The notes beneath the pieces are model-generated. The model did not search any database, was not told the origin of the DNA, and was given only the letters and a program-made list of their open reading frames with translations. This document shows, one piece after another, positions 120 through 10,808 of a stretch of DNA of 64,000 bases. The DNA lies in NCBI RefSeq assembly GCF_024462775.1, contig NZ_JANGCE010000012.1, positions 1-64,000 of the forward strand, read 5' to 3'. The position numbers and the translations under genes are program-made. The DNA comes from Butyricicoccus faecihominis. Its GTDB lineage: Bacteria > Bacillota > Clostridia > Oscillospirales > Butyricicoccaceae. Every line of letters begins with the position of its first letter. Position 1 is the first letter of the stretch.

Positions 120-1334
120 TTAACGACGGTTGGTCGAAGCGTTTACGATAAAAGCGTCCAGCACGACCGCCGCGACAAGGATCGCGCCCTGTACGACAAG
201 GCGGGTCGAGGTCTCCGCGCCGATCAGGTACATGCCGTTCGCGAGGCTGCCCATCACGAGCGAGCCGAGCAGCACGCCCCAGATGTTGCCCTTGCCGCCG
301 GTCAGGCTGGCGCCGCCGAGCACGCACGCCGCGATCGAGTTCATCATGATGCTGTCGTCGATCGAGGAGATGGAAACGCTTTGCACGCGGGAAGCCGCGA
401 TCAGCCCGGCGAACGCGAATACCGCGCCCGAGATGATAAAGGCCGCCCATTTGGTGTTTTTCACGCTGATACCCGCGCGGCGCACGGCTTCCGGGTTGCT
501 GCCGAGCGCGTACAGATGCACGCCGAAGCGCGTCTGCGTGAGCAGGTAGGAGAACGCGGCGAGCAGCACGATCAGCAGCAGCACCGAAAGGTTCAGGCCC
601 TTATAGCGCCGCATGATCTCCAGCACGGCCACGCCGCCGACGAGCACCGCGCCCGTGGGGATGATGACCTTGTTCACAAACTTGACAGGCAGATTATTTT
701 TGCGCGCCTGCGTGTAGGACTGATAGGTAAGGATGAACAGCACCGCCGTGCCCGCCGCGAGCAGCACATAGGACAGCCAGTTCGGCAGGTAAGTGGTGGT
801 GAACACGGCCAGCGAGCTGTTCATCAGCGAAATCTGGTTGTGCTCGCGCAGAATGACCAGCAGCAGGCCTTCCAGCGCCATCTGCGAGCCCAGCGTGATG
901 ATGAAGGCCGGGGCCGAAAACTTGGTGACGATCCAGCCTTGGAGAAAGCCCACGACCGCGCCGGTCAGGATGCAGGCCGCGAAGCCCGCGAGAAAGGGCA
1001 ATTCAAAGATGACGCAGATCATCGCGCCGACGGAGGCGCTCACCGCGCTTGCCGCCGCGCAGGAAAGGTCCAGCTCGCCGTGCAGCAGCACGAGGAACAG
1101 GCCGATGGACATCACGCCCATGTTGACGATCTGCACCGAAAGGGTGGTCAGGTTGCGCGAGCTGAGAAACGAGGGATTGATCGCCGTGAAAATGACCCAG
1201 ATCACGACCAGCGCGAAGATGACCGGCAGCATGCGCAGCGGGCCGTTCAGAGCTTCCATCACGCGCAGTTTTTTATTTGGTTTGATCTCTGTCGTACGGC
1301 TCAGAACGACACTGTCTTTTGTAGTTTCCGCCAT
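120..1334 (-). CDS. sugar ABC transporter permease, RbsC type
   Basis: 404-residue polytopic membrane protein of the ribose/galactose (BPD_transp_2) permease family. After a charged N-terminus of about 30 residues there are hydrophobic segments through the whole length. The conserved loop GSNPEAVRRAGI is followed by the C-terminal GGASLTGGKGNIWG region typical of RbsC/MglC permeases. The start has GGAGGAG five bases upstream. It is the last gene of a minus-strand operon and should form the membrane channel with the lipoprotein at 1394-2551 and the two ATPases at 2571-4109. The sugar is unknown. Confidence 0.9.
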   Translation of the reverse strand: MAETTKDSVVLSRTTEIKPNKKLRVMEALNGPLRMLPVIFALVVIWVIFTAINPSFLSSRNLTTLSVQIVNMGVMSIGLFLVLLHGELDLSCAAASAVSASVGAMICVIFELPFLAGFAACILTGAVVGFLQGWIVTKFSAPAFIITLGSQMALEGLLLVILREHNQISLMNSSLAVFTTTYLPNWLSYVLLAAGTAVLFILTYQSYTQARKNNLPVKFVNKVIIPTGAVLVGGVAVLEIMRRYKGLNLSVLLLIVLLAAFSYLLTQTRFGVHLYALGSNPEAVRRAGISVKNTKWAAFIISGAVFAFAGLIAASRVQSVSISSIDDSIMMNSIAACVLGGASLTGGKGNIWGVLLGSLVMGSLANGMYLIGAETSTRLVVQGAILVAAVVLDAFIVNASTNRR

Positions 1335-1393: not shown

Positions 1394-2551
1394 TTATTTT
1401 AGGGTCTTGGCGACCTCGTCGATCGCTTGCTGCGTGGCGACGCCCGCGTCGACGATCTCCGCCTTGAGGTTATCCTGAGTGATCAGCAGCGTGGGCACCA
1501 GAATTTGCGGCAAGCCGTCGGGCGAATCGTTATCGTACACACGGTCGGCCATGTCGGCGGGGCACTTGCCGTCGCGCAGCCAAGTGGCGCAAACCTCGGC
1601 GACCTTTTGGGCCTGCGTTTCGTAGTCGGGCAGTACGTCGGCCGCCTGCCAGCCCTCCTGCACGCGGGCCAGTCCCTGTACGGTGGAGTCGCAGCCGCCG
1701 AGCAGGGCCACGTCGTGCACCATGCCCTGCTCCTGTAGCGTCGCGACGACGCCGGTCAGCAGGTCGTCGTTCATGCTGATGACCACGTCTACGTCATTGC
1801 CGGTCTGCGTCAGCATTTGCTCGGTAACGGGCTGCGCGCTGGCCGCCGTCCAGTCGTTGGTATCGGCTTCAAAGACGATTTCGACCTTGCCCTCTTCCGC
1901 CCACTTGTCGAGCGTTGCATGGTAGGTATCCTTGAGATCGTTATAGAACGGGGAGCCGGTCGCGCCCCAGATACCGGCGACCTTGACGACGCCGTCCGCG
2001 TTCGGCAGAATGTTTTCCTCCATGTATTTTAGGTACTGTTCCGCGATGGCGGGGAAGGGGGTGGTGACCATCATTTCGCATTTGCCGCCGTAGGGCGTGT
2101 GCGACAGCGCGCAGAAGGGAACGCCCTCGTCGTTGAGCAGTTGCAGCGCGCCCGCCGCGCTGAGCTCCTCGGCCGGGGCGTAGACCAGAAAATCACAGCC
2201 CGCGGTGATCGCGCCTTCGATTTGCTGCAACTGCTTTTGCGCGTCGCCCTCCGCGTCCAGCACCTTCAGCTCCATATTGGGCGCGTAGGTTTTCAGCCAC
2301 TTTTCAATGAAGGGCGCGTCAAAGTTGGGCCAGCGGGAGATGGTGCCGTCGGGAATGGCGAAATAGACCGTGCCCTCGCCGTCGTAGATCACATCGCCTT
2401 CGGCCGGTTGCCCGCCGCTCGGCGTGCCGGACGGCACTGCGGTACTTCCCGCCGCGTCCGGCGCTTTGCCGGAGGAACAGCCGGTCAGCAGTAACGTGCA
2501 GGTAAAGCAGAGCATGGATAGCAGCGCGAGCGCGCGATGGAACTTTTTCAT
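1394..2551 (-). CDS. sugar ABC transporter substrate-binding lipoprotein
   Basis: 385 residues. The N-terminus is a lipoprotein signal with the lipobox LTGC, followed by a low-complexity Ser/Gly/Pro linker, so the protein should be anchored on the outer face of the membrane. The body resembles periplasmic-binding-protein-like sugar binders (Peripla_BP_4), with a hinge-type fold suggested by the segments around VISMNDDLLTG and LGGCDSTVQG. GGGAGG lies six bases before the start. It sits between an ATPase gene and the permease gene and should deliver the substrate of that transporter. The ligand cannot be told from sequence. Confidence 0.88.
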   Translation of the reverse strand: MKKFHRALALLSMLCFTCTLLLTGCSSGKAPDAAGSTAVPSGTPSGGQPAEGDVIYDGEGTVYFAIPDGTISRWPNFDAPFIEKWLKTYAPNMELKVLDAEGDAQKQLQQIEGAITAGCDFLVYAPAEELSAAGALQLLNDEGVPFCALSHTPYGGKCEMMVTTPFPAIAEQYLKYMEENILPNADGVVKVAGIWGATGSPFYNDLKDTYHATLDKWAEEGKVEIVFEADTNDWTAASAQPVTEQMLTQTGNDVDVVISMNDDLLTGVVATLQEQGMVHDVALLGGCDSTVQGLARVQEGWQAADVLPDYETQAQKVAEVCATWLRDGKCPADMADRVYDNDSPDGLPQILVPTLLITQDNLKAEIVDAGVATQQAIDEVAKTLK

Positions 2552-2570: not shown

Positions 2571-3314
2571 TTAAGACGAATGGATACCCGTAATGTGCGC
2601 GACCAGATCGTCGCGCGTAAACGTGCCGCCTTCCAGCACGCTTTCGATCTCGCCGATGCGCAGCACGACCGCGCGGTCGGCGGATTTGACGACCTCGTCC
2701 AAATCCTGCGACACGACCACGACCGCGTGTCCGGAGTCCCGCAGCGAGCGGGTCAATTTGGATACCTGCTTGCGCTGGATAACGCCGAGCGCGGCGGTCG
2801 GCTCGTCGAGCAGCACCACCTTGGAGGGCAGCAGCAGCGCCTTGGCAATGGCGACCGCCTGCCGCTGGCCGCCCGAGCGCGTGCCGACCGGGGCCGAGGG
2901 GTTGGGCACGTTGGAGCCGATCTCCCCGAACAGGTCGCGCGTCCGGCGCTCCATGCTCTCGTGGTTCAGGCGCGCCGCGCGGGTCAGTTCGTTGCCTAAG
3001 AAAATGTTTTGGAACGCGTTTAAATCGTTGCAGAGCGATAGGTCCTGATATACCGTGAAAATGCCCATGCCCTGCGCCTGCTTGGGGGTCGCGATGCGGA
3101 CGGGCTTGCCCTTGAAGAGGATTTCGCTTTCCGCGTTCGGCATGACCGCGCCGGAAAGAATGTTGACGAGCGTCGATTTGCCCGCGCCGTTGTCGCCGAC
3201 GATAAACAGCAATTCGCCCTCGTGAATGGACAGGCTCACATCGTTTAAGGCGCGCACGCCGCCGTAATCCTTAGTCAGGCGCCGCAGCTCCACGATCGGT
3301 TTTTCATTTCTCAT
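2571..3314 (-). CDS. single-domain ABC ATPase with altered signature and switch residue
   Basis: 247-residue nucleotide-binding domain of the sugar (RbsA-like) class. Walker A is GDNGAGKST and Walker B is VVLLDEP. The signature motif reads RSGGQRQ instead of LSGGQ, and the switch-loop histidine is replaced by glutamine (SQD). Its neighbour at 3324-4109 has both motifs intact, so the two proteins probably pair as an asymmetric heterodimer, like the two halves of RbsA split into separate genes. AGGAG lies six bases before the ATG, just inside the end of the previous gene. Confidence 0.87.
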   Translation of the reverse strand: MRNEKPIVELRRLTKDYGGVRALNDVSLSIHEGELLFIVGDNGAGKSTLVNILSGAVMPNAESEILFKGKPVRIATPKQAQGMGIFTVYQDLSLCNDLNAFQNIFLGNELTRAARLNHESMERRTRDLFGEIGSNVPNPSAPVGTRSGGQRQAVAIAKALLLPSKVVLLDEPTAALGVIQRKQVSKLTRSLRDSGHAVVVVSQDLDEVVKSADRAVVLRIGEIESVLEGGTFTRDDLVAHITGIHSS

Positions 3315-3323
3315 GCGCGTCTC

Positions 3324-4109
3324 CTATTCTTCGTCGAGGAAGGTGTTCGAGCCCGTGATCTCCGCGACGACGCGCTCGGTCGTGATCTCGGCCCGCTGTA
3401 TTTCGGCCACTTTTTCGCCCAGACGGAATACGACCACCTTGTCGCAAATGGGGAACACTTCGGCCAGATCGTGCGAGACCACCACCACGCCCACGTTTTT
3501 TTCGCGCAGGCCCATGATGAGCTTGGAGACCTGCTGCCGCTGCTTGAGACCAAGGTTGGCCAGCGGCTCGTCCAGCAGCACCACGTCGGGCGCGCCGAGC
3601 ATGGCCCGCGCGATGGCGACCGCCTGCCGCTGCCCGCCGGAAAGCGCGCCGGCGTTTGCGCGCACGCTCTGTATTTCGATGCCGAGCTCGTCCAGACACT
3701 GCTGGGCGACGCGCTCCATCTCGGCCTCGTTCAAACGGCCCGCGCGCGTGATCTCGCGCCCGAGGAACAGGTTCTGCACGATGTCCAGATTGTCGCAAAG
3801 CGCCAAATCCTGATATACCGTCTGAATGCCCAGCTCCACCGAATCGAGCGTGTTGTGGATCGAAACCGGCTTGCCGTTGAACCGGATTTCGCCTTCCTCG
3901 GGGATGTTAACGCCCGATATGACCTTTAAAAAGGTCGATTTGCCCGCGCCGTTATCGCCCACCAGCACGGTGACTTCGCCGCGGCGCACCTCCATGTCCA
4001 CATCGATCAGCGCCTGCACGCCGCCAAAGTATTTCGAGATGTGCCGGAGCGATAAAAGCGGCGTGTCGACATGGTCGATGTCGAGGACCGTCGTATGTTG
4101 TGCTTTCAT
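3324..4109 (-). CDS. single-domain sugar ABC ATPase, all motifs intact
   Basis: 261-residue ABC ATPase. Walker A GDNGAGKST, signature LSGGQRQ, Walker B VVLLDEP and switch SHD are all present. It resembles the N-terminal half of RbsA/XylG-type proteins but stands alone. The only clear Shine-Dalgarno (GGAGGTG) is about 13 bases before the ATG, longer than usual, so translation may be weak. It follows the RbsD-like gene and precedes the second, degenerate ATPase, with which it is expected to power the permease at 120-1334. Confidence 0.88.
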   Translation of the reverse strand: MKAQHTTVLDIDHVDTPLLSLRHISKYFGGVQALIDVDMEVRRGEVTVLVGDNGAGKSTFLKVISGVNIPEEGEIRFNGKPVSIHNTLDSVELGIQTVYQDLALCDNLDIVQNLFLGREITRAGRLNEAEMERVAQQCLDELGIEIQSVRANAGALSGGQRQAVAIARAMLGAPDVVLLDEPLANLGLKQRQQVSKLIMGLREKNVGVVVVSHDLAEVFPICDKVVVFRLGEKVAEIQRAEITTERVVAEITGSNTFLDEE

Positions 4110-4156: not shown

Positions 4157-4645
4157 TCACTTCCGGTCCTTTTTGGGCACGGTGGTAAATTTGGTTTCGC
4201 CGAGCAGCACCTTAATGTCGATATCCGCGCTCGGATAGCCCGCGATCAGCACGGCCTGCGCGTGGATGCCGATATCGCCGGTCTGGACCACGGCCTTGCA
4301 GCGGTCGCGCAGCTCGTAGTATTCGGGCGCGTAGTTGATCTGGCGCACCTTGTTTTCACCGAACAGCTCGACCAGCGTGCCGTAATCCTTGGGGTTTTGG
4401 TCTGGCATATCCTCGGTGATGATCGCGCCCTCGAAATCGCCCGCTTCGGCAAGCGTGCGGACCACATCCTCAAACGTGGGCGAGCCGGTCACCACCTCAA
4501 GGTCGAGGTATTCCACGCTCTCGTCCAGCGGGTACAGCGCTTTGGAACAGGTTCCGCTGCCGGAATCCGCGATAAACAGCATTTCGCCGTGCCGGATCGA
4601 TGCGACGATTGCCGCCAGTCTCTCGTTTAAAATTCTTCTTTTCAT
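4157..4645 (-). CDS. RbsD/FucU-family sugar mutarotase-like protein
   Basis: 162 residues, slightly longer than typical RbsD (about 140). The N-terminal RHGEMLFIADSGSG segment matches the RbsD/FucU active-site region, in which a histidine next to a glycine helps interconvert sugar ring forms. The C-terminal TGDIGIHAQAVLIAG also fits the family. Family members convert pyranose, furanose or anomeric forms of an imported sugar. Its place between a phosphotriesterase-like hydrolase and the ABC transporter supports a role in handling the imported sugar. The exact substrate is unknown. Confidence 0.75.
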   Translation of the reverse strand: MKRRILNERLAAIVASIRHGEMLFIADSGSGTCSKALYPLDESVEYLDLEVVTGSPTFEDVVRTLAEAGDFEGAIITEDMPDQNPKDYGTLVELFGENKVRQINYAPEYYELRDRCKAVVQTGDIGIHAQAVLIAGYPSADIDIKVLLGETKFTTVPKKDRK

Positions 4646-4701: not shown

Positions 4702-5775
4702 CTAGGCGTCGCGATCGATCGCGAGCACGCGCGCCGGATTGTCCACATTGAACAATCGGCAGGTGTGCGGCTCCAAACCGGCTTCCGCCAGATAACGCTG
4801 GAAATCGGTCAGCACGTGGCTGTAGCCCCAGCCGCCGTATTTGCGCAGAAAGTGCTTGAGCCCCTGATCGTGCGACAGCAGGATACGGTCGGCAAAGCCG
4901 CGGCCACACAGGCGGCGAATCGCCACGGTGCGCTGCAGATCGGTCGGCAGCACCCAAGAGCCTTGCTCCTTTTTGTAAACGGTCGTGTTGCCGCACAGCT
5001 CAAATTCCAGATAGCAGCCCCGGTTGCCAAGGCTTACGATGTAGTCCACGCCCTCGTCAAATTCGATATCCTTATGCGCGAGCGCGAAATCCAAATGACC
5101 TAGGATAATTTTATCCGGTGAAACGCCTTCTTCCTTTACCAGAATATCGAGCACCTCGTGTCCGCGCCGCGCGCCGGGGTCAAGGTGGATGGTAATGGCA
5201 AGTCCGGTCTCGCGCTGGGCGCGCGCTGCGGCGCGCAGCACCTTAACCTCGTCCTGTGTCATAAGGTAGCTCGTGCCGATCTCGCCGATGACGCCGGGGC
5301 GGATATCCGTGCCGTCCAGCCCGTTTCGGATTTCCGCAATATACTGCGCGGCAAGCTGGTCGGCCGAGGCGGCGCGCACATAGTCCGGCAGGGTGGGATC
5401 GATGTAGTGGCCCGTGCCGCAGATGATGTGCAGCCCCGTTCGGCGCGATACCTCGGCGAGCCGCCGTACATCGCGGCCAATGCCTTCAAGCGTTACCTCG
5501 GTGATCGTGCGGCCGCCGGCGGCTTTGAAAACGGCCAGCTCCTCGAGCGCGGTGTCCATGTCGGTCAGCCGGCATTCGTCGCGGTTGGCGTAGGGATTGA
5601 CGCGCATGGACCATAGGTTTTGCAGCGTGACCGGCTCCTCCATAAAACGACGTTCCGCTTCGTTTTGCGGCGGCAGCAGAAAACAGGTGAAGTCGCAGAA
5701 AATGTGCTCGTGCGTCAAGGTTGGGCCAAGCGCGCTGGGGGATACCGGCCCCCGTACGGTCATTGCATGTGCCAT
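4702..5775 (-). CDS. phosphotriesterase-family (Php-like) metal hydrolase
   Basis: 357 residues from the chosen ATG. Family signatures are the HEH pair near the N-terminus (LTHEHIFCDF), the GEIGTS segment where the family carries its bridging residue, LGHLDFALAHKD with metal-ligand histidines, and LSHDQGLK with the last aspartate. This is the binuclear-metal amidohydrolase fold of bacterial PTE/lactonase-type enzymes. An upstream in-frame extension exists but runs through a terminator hairpin, and AGGAGG is seven bases before the ATG at 5775, so that start is preferred. First gene of the sugar operon. A lactonase or sugar-derivative hydrolase is likely. Confidence 0.85.
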   Translation of the reverse strand: MAHAMTVRGPVSPSALGPTLTHEHIFCDFTCFLLPPQNEAERRFMEEPVTLQNLWSMRVNPYANRDECRLTDMDTALEELAVFKAAGGRTITEVTLEGIGRDVRRLAEVSRRTGLHIICGTGHYIDPTLPDYVRAASADQLAAQYIAEIRNGLDGTDIRPGVIGEIGTSYLMTQDEVKVLRAAARAQRETGLAITIHLDPGARRGHEVLDILVKEEGVSPDKIILGHLDFALAHKDIEFDEGVDYIVSLGNRGCYLEFELCGNTTVYKKEQGSWVLPTDLQRTVAIRRLCGRGFADRILLSHDQGLKHFLRKYGGWGYSHVLTDFQRYLAEAGLEPHTCRLFNVDNPARVLAIDRDA

Positions 5776-5809
5776 GGTCATTCCTCCTGTTTTTTTGTCT
5801 TGCATGCAC

Positions 5810-5861
5810 AAAAAAAGCCACAGATCCCCTTCATCTTGTCCGATGAAAGCATCCATGGCTT
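5810..5861 (-). terminator. intrinsic terminator in the leader of the sugar operon (attenuator)
   Basis: On the minus strand the arm AAGCCAUGGAU pairs with AUCUGUGGCUU, and an apical UUCAUC/GAUGAA stem with a six-base loop (GGACAA) caps it. Seven U follow immediately (5816-5810). It lies between the promoter at 5928-5956 and the first gene, about 35 bases before the start codon, so it can only act as an attenuator. Bases 5861-5847 can instead form a short hairpin (AAGC/GCUU around CAUGGAU) that would disrupt the terminator arm. Confidence 0.85.
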
Positions 5862-5876
5862 ATCACTTTGTCCGCC

Positions 5877-5899
5877 GGCGCGGCAGTCTTGACCGCGCC
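5877..5899 (-). promoter_or_regulatory. leader hairpin upstream of the attenuator, possible ANTAR-binding P1 stem
   Basis: A 7-bp all-GC stem (GGCGCGG/CCGCGCC) closes a nine-base loop, with a U-G or bulged-U/C-G extension possible that would shrink the loop to six or seven bases. It lies 15 bases before the hairpin that overlaps the terminator arm. Two small stem-loops, the second overlapping a terminator, is the arrangement known for ANTAR antitermination targets. The expected A1/G4 hexaloop pattern is not exact here, so the assignment is an inference. Confidence 0.45.
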
Positions 5900-5927
5900 T
5901 GACGCTCTATGCACTTTTGTTATGGCT

Positions 5928-5956
5928 ATATTAACACCACCCGTCTTTTTTGTCAA
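5928..5956 (-). promoter_or_regulatory. consensus promoter of the phosphotriesterase-RbsD-ABC operon
   Basis: On the minus strand TTGACA (5956-5951) and TAATAT (5933-5928) are separated by exactly 17 bp. Transcription would start near 5921 and give a leader of about 145 bases that contains the attenuator hairpin. Confidence 0.82.
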
Positions 5957-6038
5957 TGATTTATATCTCATTTAATTTAATGGATATAATATTTGGTGAA
6001 CCTGCATGATTCACGGGTTTTTAACTTGTTTAAAACGT

Positions 6039-7925
6039 TCATACAGTTGCGGCGCCGTTGTCCAGCGGCAGGGGGGACAGGCTGGCGCGGCGGGGAAAGC
6101 GCACGTTTGCCTCAGTGCCGTGCGGCGAAGCGGGCAAATAGGTAAGCGCGCCGTTTAATTCGCGGAGGATGCTGGTGATGATGCTCATGCCCACGCTTTC
6201 GGCCGCGTCCGCCTGAAAGCCCTCCGGCAGGCCCGCGCCGTTGTCCGCGACGGAGAGGATGACCATCGTGCCGGTATTGCGCAGCGTGATCCGCACGCGG
6301 CAGCCGCTTTGTCCGGGTAAAAACGCGTGGCGCACACAGTTGCTGATCAGCTCGTTTGTGACCAGCGCGATCGAGATCGCGTCGTCATAGGGCACGCTGG
6401 TCTCCTCAAGCTGGGTGTCGAGCGTGATCGACAGGCCGTGGTAAATATGCAGGATCTCAAGGATGAGCGTTTTCAGGTTGACCACATTGCGCCCGAACCA
6501 ATCCTTGCACAGCAGCGCGTGCACCGTGGCGATGCACTTGATGCGGTGCATCGCTTCGTCCAGTATTTCGCCCACGTTGGGGTCGGGCGCGGCGAGCGCG
6601 TCCGCCTTTTGCAGATACAGCAGGTTGTGCACCATTTGCAGGTTGTTTTTGATGCGGTGGTGGGTCTCTTGCAATAAAACGGAGTTGCCCATCAGGCGCG
6701 AGGTCTCGATGGCGACGGCGACCTCGCGCGCGTACATTTTCAAATAGATCGGCGCTTGCGGCGCGGGCACGCGCCCGGCGGAAAACATCACCTGAATCAG
6801 CGCGTTCTTTTTTCCGTCCAGCCGCACCGGGTAGCAGAATATATGTCGTATCGCATCGCTTTTGGAGAAAAGCGCTTCAAATCGCGCCTCGCCCGCGCGA
6901 AATTGCAGCACGCCCTTCTGCTGAAGCAGCGCCAGCACGTCGGTGTGCGGCAAAAGGGGGAGCGGCGGCGCGCCGTCCCCGCTGGAGATCACGTCCACCA
7001 CGTTCATGCGCGATTCGTCCACCAGATACAGCACCGAGCAATCCGCGCCGAGCGCCTTGACCAGATCGCCCGCGATGTGCTCCAGCACGCGCTTGAGCTC
7101 GCCGTCCGACTGCATGATATCGTCGATATTGCTGATCGCCTGCAACACGGAAAGGTCGTCCTCCTCGGTGCGCGATTCGATGAGCGGCTCCCACCCGGAA
7201 AGCAGGTAGGCGATTTCGCTGGGGTTTTTGCGCACTTCCTCCGTGGGAAAGGTGCCCTTGATCGTGCCGCCGTCCAGAATGGAGATGCGGTCGCCCAGCC
7301 GGAGCGCCTCCTCAAAGCTGCTGGTCATATAGATCACGCCGCAGCCCGCTTCGGTGAGAAAGCGCAGCACCTTGGGGAGCAGCCCGCGGCTTTCGCCGCC
7401 CAGATAATTGATCGCGTCGAAAAACACCGCGACAGGGGGCGCGATCGCGCATAAACGCAGCATTTCCACGGTTTTGCATTCGTCCACGCTCATCTGCGAC
7501 GGGCTTTTGGACAGATCGAGCGAAACGCCCACCCGCCGCATCAGCTCCGTGCACTGGTCCAGCGCGCCGCGCTTGACGCAAAAGCGGGGCTTGAGGCTGG
7601 CGATCAGGATATTTTCCGCGACCGAGATAGAAGGGCAGAGCATGGGCGCAAGGCCGATAAACTGAATCTCGCGCTCCAACCGGCGGCGTTTTTTGTAGGG
7701 TTGGCCCAAAATATCGTAAGCGCCCGACAGACCGAGCACGTCTCCGCACAGCAGGTCGCAAAAATTGCGGTGGTCGTAAATGTAGGTGCCGAGCAGCACG
7801 TGCGTTTCGCCCGGCCTTAGGTCGAAGCGGAGGTTTTGAAGCCGCCGCCCGCCGTGCGCGAGCGAGGAGAGGTTTTCCATGCGCAGCAGCGGCGCGCGGC
7901 TTTTTTTCTGCGTCCCCCTTGTCAT
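6039..7925 (-). CDS. histidine kinase with N-terminal degenerate ABC-ATPase domain and GAF-like domain
   Basis: 628 residues. Residues 14-245 follow the layout of a sugar-type ABC ATPase, but every catalytic motif is lost: the P-loop region reads LGTYIYDHR, the signature region MSVDEC, Walker B ends FFDAIN, and the switch is MTSS. Residues 260-410 look like a GAF-type sensor. ETHHRIKNN at 420-428 is a HisKA_2 phosphoacceptor (His422/423), and 515-610 is an HATPase domain with NELISN and DNGAGLP. No membrane segment is seen. Its ATG overlaps the stop of the REC-ANTAR gene (ATGA), so the two are coupled. The pseudo-ATPase may dock on a permease or bind a ligand. That is inference. Confidence 0.85.
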   Translation of the reverse strand: MTRGTQKKSRAPLLRMENLSSLAHGGRRLQNLRFDLRPGETHVLLGTYIYDHRNFCDLLCGDVLGLSGAYDILGQPYKKRRRLEREIQFIGLAPMLCPSISVAENILIASLKPRFCVKRGALDQCTELMRRVGVSLDLSKSPSQMSVDECKTVEMLRLCAIAPPVAVFFDAINYLGGESRGLLPKVLRFLTEAGCGVIYMTSSFEEALRLGDRISILDGGTIKGTFPTEEVRKNPSEIAYLLSGWEPLIESRTEEDDLSVLQAISNIDDIMQSDGELKRVLEHIAGDLVKALGADCSVLYLVDESRMNVVDVISSGDGAPPLPLLPHTDVLALLQQKGVLQFRAGEARFEALFSKSDAIRHIFCYPVRLDGKKNALIQVMFSAGRVPAPQAPIYLKMYAREVAVAIETSRLMGNSVLLQETHHRIKNNLQMVHNLLYLQKADALAAPDPNVGEILDEAMHRIKCIATVHALLCKDWFGRNVVNLKTLILEILHIYHGLSITLDTQLEETSVPYDDAISIALVTNELISNCVRHAFLPGQSGCRVRITLRNTGTMVILSVADNGAGLPEGFQADAAESVGMSIITSILRELNGALTYLPASPHGTEANVRFPRRASLSPLPLDNGAATV

Positions 7926-8494
7926 TTGATCAGCTCCTCGCGGCGCAGGATATCCTGCGCGACCAGTACCAGCTTGCGGTTTTCGTTCCGGCTTTTGCGC
8001 TGCAAAAAGCGCATCGCGTCCTCGTCGCCAATGCCGAATTGATCCATCAAAAGCCCCTTGGCGCGTTCGATCACCTTGCGCTCGGAAAGGCGGTTGATGG
8101 CCTGATCGCGCTCGCTGATGGCGGCGCGCTGCTCGGCGTAGCGCGCGTAGGCGATGGACAGCGCGGATTCGATCTCGTATTCATCCACCGGCTTTTGCAA
8201 ATAGCCGAACACGCCCGCCGCGCTGACGCGCTCGGTCACCTTGGAATCGCGGTAGCCCGTTATGACCACCGCCGGGATCTGAAAAACCTTTTGCACGGTC
8301 TCGATCGCGGTAATGCCGTCTATTTCGGGTAGGTTCACGTCCATCATCACGATATCGGGCCGCAGTTCCAGAATACGTTCGATCGCAAGCTTGCCGTTGC
8401 CGGCCGTGCCCACCACCTCGTGTCCGATATTGGCTACCATCTTCTGAAAACCGAGCCGCACGAGCGGCTCGTCCTCTGCAATAAACACGCGCAC
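7922..8494 (-). CDS. REC-ANTAR response regulator (RNA-binding antiterminator)
   Basis: 190 residues from the GTG at 8494, which has GGGGGAGG eight bases upstream. A TTG further upstream lies before that ribosome site and is rejected. The receiver domain has the acidic pair near residue 7 and the phosphoacceptor Asp52 in VMMDVNLP. A coiled linker leads to a C-terminal ANTAR domain (about 125-185) with ERAKGLLMDQFG and the DEDAMRFLQRKS core. ANTAR proteins bind paired RNA stem-loops and block terminators. The attenuator upstream of the adjacent sugar operon (5810-5899) is the obvious candidate target. It overlaps the kinase gene by four bases. Confidence 0.92.
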   Translation of the reverse strand: MRVFIAEDEPLVRLGFQKMVANIGHEVVGTAGNGKLAIERILELRPDIVMMDVNLPEIDGITAIETVQKVFQIPAVVITGYRDSKVTERVSAAGVFGYLQKPVDEYEIESALSIAYARYAEQRAAISERDQAINRLSERKVIERAKGLLMDQFGIGDEDAMRFLQRKSRNENRKLVLVAQDILRREELIK

Positions 8495-8516
8495 GGTATT
8501 TGCCTCCCCCCTCAAG

Positions 8517-10808
8517 TCAGTCTGTTTCCAGCGGCCTGTCCTCCCGGCGCAGCGCGCGGGCCGTGGCCGAATGGGGACAGTGTACGAGCCCCGCGGGCGG
8601 GCCTTCGTACAGCACCTGCCCGCCGTTTTTGCCGCCCTCCGGCCCCATGTCGATCACCCAATCCGCCCGGCGGATCACATCCAGATCATGCTCCACCACA
8701 ATGGCGGAAGCGCCCCCCTCGATCAGGCGGGCAAGCAGCTGCATCAGCTGCTCCACATCCGCCCCGTGCAGGCCGGTGGCCGGCTCGTCCAGCAGCAAGA
8801 CGCCGCCCTCGCCGCCCAGATGGCTGGCCAGCTTGACGCGCTGGCACTCGCCGCCGGAAAGCGTGCCGGTCGGCTGGCCGAGCGTCAGATAGCCAAGGCC
8901 GACGTTTGCCAGCATACGCAGCTTGGCGCGGATTTTGGGGCTTATAAAAAATTCCATGGCCTCGTCCACCGTCAGCGCCAGCACCTCCAGAATCGTTTTG
9001 CCGCCAAAGCGGTGGGAGAGCGCTTCTTCGCTGAACCGCGTGCCGCGGCAGGCTTCGCACGGCTGGGTCACCGGGTCCATGAAGGCCATTTCGGTGGTGA
9101 CAAAGCCCTTGCCCTTGCAGACCGGGCAGGCCCCCTTGGAGCTGTAACTGAACAGCGCCGCATCCACGCCGTTTTCGCGGGCGAACAAGCGGCGTATCTC
9201 ATCCATTATGCCCAAGTAGGTCGCCGGGGTCGAGCGGGAGCTGGCGCCGATCGGCGCGCTGCTGATGTGCTCGGCCTGCGGGTACAGGCGCTTCAGTTCG
9301 CCGCAGACGAGCGAGGTCTTGCCCGACCCGGCGAGCCCGCTCACCACGGTCAGCACGCCGAGCGGGATATCGACCGATACGTTCTTGAGATTGTGCAGCG
9401 TCGCGTTCCGAATGTGCAGCCAGCCCTTTGGTTTTCGCGGACAGGGATTGAGCGGCGTTTTCTTGCGCAGGCTCAGCCCGGTCAGGCTGTCCTGCTCCAT
9501 AAGCGCGCCGACCGGCCCCTGAAAGATCACCCTGCCGCCGCCGGTACCGGCGGCGGGCCCCATGTCGATTACCTCGTCCGCCATGCGGATCACGGCCTTG
9601 TTGTGCTCCACCACCAGCAGCGTGTTGCCCCGGTCGCGCAGGCGCAGCAGCAGGCGGCCCAGCCTCGTAACGTCCGCCGGGTGCAGCCCGGCGGAGGGCT
9701 CGTCAAAAATATAGGTCAGCCCGGTCAGGCTGCTGCCCAAATGGCGCACCATTTTCAGCCGCTGCGCTTCGCCGCCGGACAGGGTGCGGCAGGGGCGGTT
9801 CAGGCTCAGGTAGCCAAGGCCCATATCGGTTATGCTGTGCAGCACGCGAACCAGCCGCCGCGCGAGGGAAGCGCCCACCGGGTTTTCCAGCCGTTCCAGC
9901 ACGGCGGAAAGGTCGCCGATCTCCATTTCGCCCAGCTCGTGGATGTTAAAGCCGAAAAGGCGGCTTTCGAGCGCAGCCGCGTTCAGGCGCGCGCCGCGGC
10001 AGGCGGGGCAGGCGCATTCGGTGGTGAAATCGCGCAGGATGCGCTGCGCGGCCTTGCTGCCCGCGTTCACGTCCCGCTTGAGGTATAGCCGCTCGATGCG
10101 GTCGAGAAAGCCCTCGTAGGTGAGCGTGTAATCGTTCCAGACCTTGCCGGTCGTGTTGCGGATGGGCACGATCACGCCCGAGCCGTGCAAAAAGTCCTGC
10201 CATTCCCGCTCGCTCCACTGGCAAAGGGGCTTGTCCGGGTCCAAAAGGCCCGAATTGGCGTAAAGCTGCCACTGATAGGCGCCCACCTGATGGCCGGGGA
10301 ACAGGATCGCGCCTTCGTTTAGCGATTTCTCCGTATCCAGCAGCTTGGCGAAATCAAAGCGCACGGTCTTGCCAAGGCCGCTGCACACCGGGCACATGCC
10401 TGAGGGATCGTTAAAGGAATAGGCGGAGGACGGCCCGGCGCTCGGCGTGGCGCAGCGGGAAAAGAGCAGGCGCAGCAGGGGCGCCAGATCGGTCATGGTC
10501 GCCACGGTCGAGCGGATATCGCCATGAAAAGGCTTTTGGTCGATCACGATCGAGGTGGTCAGCCCGTCGATCATGTCCACGGCGGGCATTTCGTAGTGGG
10601 GCAGGCGGCTGCGCAGATAGAGCGGGTAGGTGTCGTTCAGCTGTCTCGACGCTTCGACCGCGATTGTGTCGAACACCAGCGAGGACTTGCCTGAACCGGA
10701 TACGCCGGTAAAGACCACCAGCCTGCCCTTTGGAATGGAAAGGCTTATGTGCTTCAAATTGTTTTCATGCGCGCCCGAAAGGACGATCGCGTCGCGTGCG
10801 CGGGGCAT
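8517..10808 (-). CDS. short UvrA paralogue (UvrA2-like ABC protein)
   Basis: 763 residues against about 940 for true UvrA. There are two ABC domains with Walker [10 protein letters not shown] and GLAGSGKTS, two signature LSGGE segments ([10 protein letters not shown] and [10 protein letters not shown]), and zinc-type CxxC pairs (CPVC, CPAC, CPVC, CEAC). The reduced length fits UvrA-like proteins that lack the UvrB-interaction insertion. Such paralogues are linked to drug tolerance or DNA-damage responses in other bacteria, but no clear role can be given here. Its stop lies 22 bases before the REC-ANTAR start, so the regulator and kinase may be read from this gene's promoter. Confidence 0.85.

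Follow-up and report, generated by a model that had tools for sequence, protein, structure and literature searches.

The kinase gene and its surroundings

The DNA analyzed here, 64,000 nucleotides (nt) from Butyricicoccus faecihominis (contig NZ_JANGCE010000012.1, positions 1 to 64,000; hereafter, the window), encodes a sensor histidine kinase of 628 amino acids (aa) at 6039..7925, recognized from the list of open reading frames (ORFs) and by profile search. Its N-terminal input domain resembles an ATP-binding cassette (ABC) ATPase that has lost its nucleotide-site motifs. A reading made beforehand from the DNA without database searches (hereafter, the sequence-only reading) had already described a kinase with a dead ABC ATPase as its input domain, and our analysis bears this observation out, with the correction that the gene lies on the minus strand, as do all of the window features given below. 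The protein is laid out as a pseudo-nucleotide-binding domain (pseudo-NBD; residues 10 to 245, encoded at 7191..7898) like the first NBD (NBD1) of CUT2-type sugar transporter ATPases, a GAF-like region (about residues 255 to 408), a HisKA_2 domain for dimerization and histidine phosphorylation (DHp; about 409 to 480), and a HATPase domain (about 490 to 612). It is a HisKA_2 histidine kinase, as had been proposed, a class that also includes EutW: the Pfam models HisKA_2 (50 bits) and HATPase_c (39.8 bits) both score above their cutoffs, and the phosphoacceptor histidine sequence is QETHHRIKNNLQ. The region at 255 to 408 was judged GAF-like by secondary-structure prediction, its Pfam GAF matches being weak and under the cutoffs. 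No clear transmembrane segment was found in the kinase, whose hydropathy reaches a maximum of 1.55 over 19 aa. A full-length AlphaFold model (pLDDT, 67.5; pTM, 0.39), which served for topology only, gave Foldseek rows headed by histidine kinases and phytochromes.

The first 4 nt of the kinase gene are also the last 4 nt of a response regulator gene (7922..8515), whose product has a receiver domain (Response_reg, 80.2 bits) and an RNA-binding ANTAR domain (63.9 bits). Downstream of the kinase, on the same strand and in this order, are genes for a phosphotriesterase-family enzyme (4702..5775), an RbsD/FucU-family protein (4157..4645), two ABC ATPases (3324..4109 and 2571..3314), a Peripla_BP_4 sugar-binding protein (1394..2551), and a CUT2-type BPD_transp_2 permease (120..1334) whose best NCBIfam model is GguB, under its cutoff; the enzyme, the RbsD/FucU-family protein, and the binding protein were assigned by profile search. 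The start of the phosphotriesterase gene is probably not the mechanical ORF start at 5856, which falls inside the regulatory leader described below, but one near 5775 that is preceded by AGGAGG (5783-5788). The two ATPases of this CUT2 sugar operon are separately encoded proteins (2571-4109), as the sequence-only reading had it, and they branch apart both from RbsA NBD1 and from NBD2 in the NBD tree. The first retains the P-loop, SGGQ, DEP, and the H-loop His; the second has the P-loop, DEP, and SGGQ, with the H-loop His replaced by Gln.

Ancestry, constraint, and genomic linkage of the input domain

The Pfam ABC_tran model scores 22.5 bits on the window kinase, under its cutoff of 25, and the best NCBIfam matches of the N-terminal part, all far under their cutoffs, are mostly to the first halves of CUT2-type ATPases (a B6 transporter ATPase, LsrA, YtfR, AraG, and AlsA), with the tungstate ATPase WtpC also among them. 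In a tree of 65 NBDs, 23 kinase NBDs split from the other 42 with a support of 98/91, and the kinase NBDs together with CUT2 NBD1 split from NBD2, the window's own ATPases, and the outgroups with a support of 99/97. These 23 remained of 26 kinases after removal of a duplicate, a copy from the same species, and the split gene of genome G633. The tree program flagged five long branches (three of them kinase rows), noted that two long kinase branches meet, and found six kinase rows to deviate in composition. Residues 14 to 245 have the ABC-like fold proposed for them, and the input domain is derived from CUT2 (RbsA-type) NBD1. Both the tree and most of the top NCBIfam matches place it nearest to the NBD1s of RbsA, MglA, and AraG, from which it differs in having lost catalytic residues and in being fused to a kinase.

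The sequence-only reading had further held that four ATPase motifs were destroyed and that the ATPase was dead, and this stands in part. Walker A, Walker B, and the H-loop are lost in the window kinase, and the domain falls short of a functional ATPase as judged by Walker A, Walker B with the catalytic Glu, the Q-loop Gln, and the H-loop His. The signature motif is not a loss in the kinase, since the CUT2 NBD1 parent class is already degenerate there. Deadness, moreover, is specific to a lineage: Walker A is canonical in 8 of the 23 kinase NBDs, has the form GxxGxGKK in 6, and is lost in 9, including that of the window, while a canonical DEP is found in 4 and the H-loop His in 1. This pattern points to a single fusion whose ATPase was eroded later, and one ancestral NBD-kinase fusion kept in Bacilli and Clostridia would explain the family. 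In the window's lineage, the pseudo-NBD keeps the ABC fold and the segment after the Q-loop but can hardly bind or hydrolyze ATP.

Two rival accounts of the domain bear directly on these motifs. Because Walker A and DEP are both kept in four members (from G727, G438, G776, and G845), the NBD might let the kinase sense nucleotides or energy charge. The nine members without a P-loop have a genomic context of the same kind, on which ground we reject energy sensing by the window domain, and the near-absence of the H-loop His across the family also makes this account highly improbable. Alternatively, the NBD could pair with the importer's own ATPase in a mixed NBD-NBD dimer and sense or regulate ATPase turnover, rather than being bound to the permease. 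NBDs dimerize by nature, the partner of the ancestral CUT2 NBD1 is NBD2, and the P-loop is intact in eight members; yet the nucleotide-sandwich residues (Walker A and Walker B) are lost in the window's lineage, and the retained post-Q segment points toward the permease side, which renders such pairing unlikely.

The pseudo-NBD is under purifying selection despite the loss of the P-loop in the window's lineage. The ratio of nonsynonymous to synonymous substitution rates (dN/dS) of the NBD is 0.106 to 0.122 in three pairs among G830 (the same as Halanaerobium congolense), G834, and G835, 0.139 for G702 and G837, and about 0.16 for the window kinase and that of G006, this last pair having a dS close to saturation. 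In one further kinase copy (paralogue b), the NBDs of two strains of the window's species are separated by five synonymous changes and no nonsynonymous one. A decaying, functionless domain is disfavored by this selection. Identity of the nine P-loop-dead NBDs to the RbsA consensus is 10% at Walker A, 60% at seven conserved post-Q columns, and 32% at 91 other conserved columns.

The window's own genome holds three full-length copies of the kinase (100, 38, and 33% identity to the query), and full-length or near-full-length relatives were found elsewhere in the same genus (locus L010), in the same order (G360), and in a phylum sample, in which 8 of 398 genomes, the own genome counted, have relatives; further ones turned up around these. 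Named relatives come from Mesobacillus campisalis, "Candidatus Equihabitans merdae," H. congolense, and Gracilibacillus halophilus, all Bacillota; among 80 loci listed from a scan of named-genome contigs with two kinase-domain patterns, 4 match nearly the whole query, and all 4 are from Bacillota. A search of viral contigs found no relatives. Altogether, 26 loci were inspected, of which L174 and L183 repeat others, leaving a family of 24 distinct loci. Two of these carry damaged genes: in L168 (9566-11419), an in-frame TAG interrupts the G633 kinase gene, whose surroundings are otherwise normal, and in L182 (9184-10488), a shortened kinase of 434 aa without a response regulator, which looks like a remnant, lies beside a CUT2 cluster that holds, by inspection, an L-arabinose isomerase-like gene.

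An ANTAR regulator adjoins the kinase in 21 of the 24 loci; the contig ends too early in two of the others (L016 and L178), and the third is the truncated kinase of L182. A permease lies within 10 kb of the kinase in 22 of 22 evaluable loci (the contigs of L019 and L178 end too early), and all 22 are above the Pfam BPD_transp_2 cutoff; that of L014 is 7.7 kb off, at the opposite end of the same run of genes. A Poisson count, which treats clustered permeases as independent points, gives an expectation of 3.1 permease-linked loci over the 20 loci with genome-wide permease counts. The sequence-only reading had suggested a survey of homologs, and these do co-occur nonrandomly with ANTAR regulators and with ABC operons that have BPD_transp_2 permeases and are mostly of the ribose type. 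The other neighbors vary, with galK/galE, adenosine deaminase plus a BMP-type binding protein, an FGGY kinase, or PfkB plus aldolase, and an L-arabinose isomerase gene near the G837 kinase copy. Linkage alone shows only probable regulation of the operon, which speaks for the reading of an ordinary two-component regulator that picked up an ABC domain without a sensing role. The retention of one ancestral fusion in Bacilli and Clostridia and a dN/dS of about 0.1 to 0.16 where measured nevertheless make this very unlikely.

The leader RNA of the importer operon

Between the kinase gene and the importer operon lies a sigma-70-type promoter-like site, TTGACA-17-TAATAT (5928..5956), found by consensus match; the consensus scan of 5600-8800 gave two sites against 1.0 expected in shuffles. 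Beyond it come a hairpin P1 (5877..5899; loop CAAGACT), a hairpin P2 (5847..5861; loop CATGGAT), and a terminator-like hairpin (5810..5861) with a T7 tail, whose 5' arm starts in P2 and with which P2 is mutually exclusive. The segment 5806-5920 folds with -50.3 kcal/mol (z, -5.07). This is the layout of an EutVW-type leader, with two hairpins, the second overlapping a terminator. The P2 loop, ATGGAT, matches a hexaloop with A at 1 and G at 4, and the P1 loop, AAGACT, has G at 3. A strict scan for AnnGnn hexaloops found no double ANTAR motif, and in the leaders it gave scattered single hairpins only; a consensus scan restricted to loops of 3 to 8 did not list the terminator-like hairpin at 5810..5861. 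An Rfam scan of 5500-9000 gave two matches at E <= 5, far under the gathering scores, which were taken as chance.

With the loop pattern A[AT]G[AG], 15 of 21 leaders show two hairpins overlapping a terminator; none of the 100 shuffles made per leader does, nor does any of 196 intergenic strands from elsewhere. As the pattern was drawn from these same leaders, the relevant controls are these shuffles and other strands. The leaders missed were those of L018, L015, L014, L171, L173, and L019; for L014 the wrong gap was scanned, the operon's leader sitting in L184. In an RNA model of 16 leaders, which included L018 and L184 and left out L181 and L019, 95.4% of cells pair, and pairing falls to 34 to 52% when the structure is slid. 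The covariation score is 0.545 against 0.252 in shuffles, and 0 of 500 shuffles attain it; 25 of 500 attain the count of pairs changed on both sides. Run over the 3.69-Mb own genome, the covariance model gave two top matches (30.5 and 28.1 bits), both from its training set, which are the leaders belonging to two of the three operons linked to a kinase copy; the next match scores 17.7 bits (150 of 1175 first-look candidates scored). Leaders outside the model were found in the expected place at L181 (26.6 bits), L019 (22.3 bits), L173 (18.7 bits), and L171 (18.0 bits).

A putative transporter-coupled sensor

The nearest regulatory precedent is EutV-EutW, in which a kinase and an ANTAR antiterminator act on a pair of small hairpins that precede the controlled operon and of which the second overlaps a terminator (PMC3369931). 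The window locus resembles it in its two-component pair with an ANTAR regulator and in its two-hairpin leader over a terminator, and it differs in the CUT2 pseudo-NBD as the input domain, in its loops (most have 7 nt and, in the alignment, A at position 2 and G at position 4, against the hexaloop with A at 1 and G at 4), and in its targets, which here are sugar or nucleoside importers and which for ANTAR proteins are, in that account, mostly related to nitrogen metabolism (PMC3369931). On this precedent and on the anatomy of the locus, a circuit that would run from sensor kinase to ANTAR regulator to leader antitermination to importer operon is well supported. The P1-P2 RNA, we infer, would be the ANTAR target in vivo.

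Precedents also exist for the input side. According to PMC10314905, the histidine kinase BceS is thought to read the conformational cycling of the ABC transporter BceAB, whose expression it controls, and is a membrane kinase that touches BceB via transmembrane helices and lipids. The window kinase is not of this type: with its hydropathy maximum of 1.55 it is soluble, it itself bears an ABC ATPase-like domain, and its neighbor is a CUT2 sugar importer, not a peptide-resistance transporter. The Pst system uses a separate linker protein, PhoU, and is not known to have an NBD within the kinase. In PstSCAB-PhoU-PhoR, importer state is signaled to the histidine kinase, and together with the flux sensing of BceS this shows that kinases can read ABC transporters (PMC6978683 and PMC10314905). 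In searches of the open-licence literature aimed at this architecture, we found no description of an ABC ATPase-like domain as the input of a histidine kinase, and we do not claim priority.

Our preferred interpretation, to which we assign a probability of roughly one half, is a soluble transporter-coupled sensor whose pseudo-NBD docks on an RbsC-type permease and whose kinase drives ANTAR antitermination of the importer operon. A CUT2 NBD1 would have been fused once to a GAF-HisKA_2 kinase, and the dimeric kinase would dock two pseudo-NBDs on its cognate permease, an RbsC-type dimer, from the cytoplasmic side, either in exchange with the true ATPases or beside them. Arrival of the sugar-loaded binding protein, or transport turnover, would alter the contact between pseudo-NBD and permease and switch the kinase activity, so that the ANTAR regulator would be phosphorylated, hold P1-P2 (5847-5899), prevent the overlapping terminator, and turn on the enzyme-RbsD-importer operon. 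The docking, the signal, and its sign are what we infer here. Docking on the importer is the best explanation for a CUT2-derived domain selected after the loss of its motifs, a BPD_transp_2 importer at all evaluable loci amid varied metabolic genes, and no obvious membrane segment, and the permease is the likeliest partner. The sequence-only reading, which had proposed that transport itself is sensed, is partly supported, by fold, ancestry, adjacency, and co-occurrence, and neither of the two outcomes that it had named as refuting was observed. In a tentative and somewhat doubtful variant, the dimeric kinase would stand in for the ATPase subunits, its two pseudo-NBDs filling the RbsC dimer in place of the motor to form, with the binding protein, a transport-dead transmembrane receptor made of importer parts that would revert to an importer when the true ATPases it induces displace the kinase.

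Several results weigh against permease docking. In a mirror-tree analysis of 15 loci, the NBD-permease partial correlation, given the catalytic (CA) domain and the response regulator (RR), is -0.058 (Mantel p, 0.68), while the RR-permease correlation is 0.446 (p, 0.001); G006 and G850 were dropped with one gene missing, and the third G000 copy, G360, G515, Equihabitans, G633, G845, and G849c were not entered. A coupling-helix motif is common to CUT2 permeases, so that this negative result weakens a specific interface and does not exclude it. The post-Q segment would line the coupling-helix groove for the permease, a role taken from the general ABC transporter literature, and its comparison with other regions rests on seven conserved columns only. 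On the RNA side, the loop pattern was read from the leaders it describes, the hairpin boundaries of the RNA model were set by eye on the same leaders, and the leader model had no match in the expected gap of paralogue b (G000 C11:52509-54308). Furthermore, of the kinase's domains the NBD has the lowest mean conservation (29.2% against 33.0, 37.8, and 57.6%; 231 pairs), and the true sensor could be the GAF-like region, whose value is the 33.0%.

This last point leads to a reading in which a ligand in the cytoplasm, either the imported sugar or some metabolite, is sensed by the GAF-like region and the pseudo-NBD is merely a scaffold for dimerization or tethering. The GAF-like predicted secondary structure, the weak Pfam matches, and the slightly higher conservation all favor it; those matches, however, lie under the Pfam cutoffs, and a pure scaffold leaves unexplained the CUT2 origin, the importer at every evaluable locus, and the purifying selection, so that we regard it as possible but rather improbable. 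If the transporter-coupled sensor is real, it would be a soluble, modular way to read the state of an ABC importer, with the kinase carrying the importer's own motor domain as an adaptor, and ANTAR antitermination would widen from its mostly nitrogen-related targets (PMC3369931) to the uptake of sugars and nucleosides. Within the family there survives a series that runs from ATPase domains with intact motifs (the four members named above) through GxGKK P-loops to the dead domain of the window's lineage, so that the step from motor to sensor is testable in extant proteins.

Some further features of individual loci were noted. The sole match of the leader model at the paralogue b locus (L015 11115-11165, plus strand; 21.6 bits; E, 0.061) is on the opposite strand, ahead of a 278-aa ORF. 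In L184, a 116-aa ORF (7492-7842) that we take to resemble an IS200-type transposase fragment lies upstream of the paralogue c operon. On G000 C11 (L014, L015, and L184), two related CUT2 operons stand in tandem with two NBD-kinase/ANTAR pairs and share similar genes (aldo/keto-reductase-like, aldolase, dehydrogenases, PfkB-type kinase, phosphotriesterase-like, and glycerate-kinase-like), most of them named by inspection and three by Pfam. Finally, the DNA of G830 (L174) and G835 (L175) is about 80% identical over the NBD and the upstream genes and 92 to 99% identical over most of the stretch from the end of the NBD through the permease; the kinase gene in this group (with L176 of G834) is a mosaic, with a natural domain-swap breakpoint near the NBD/GAF junction.
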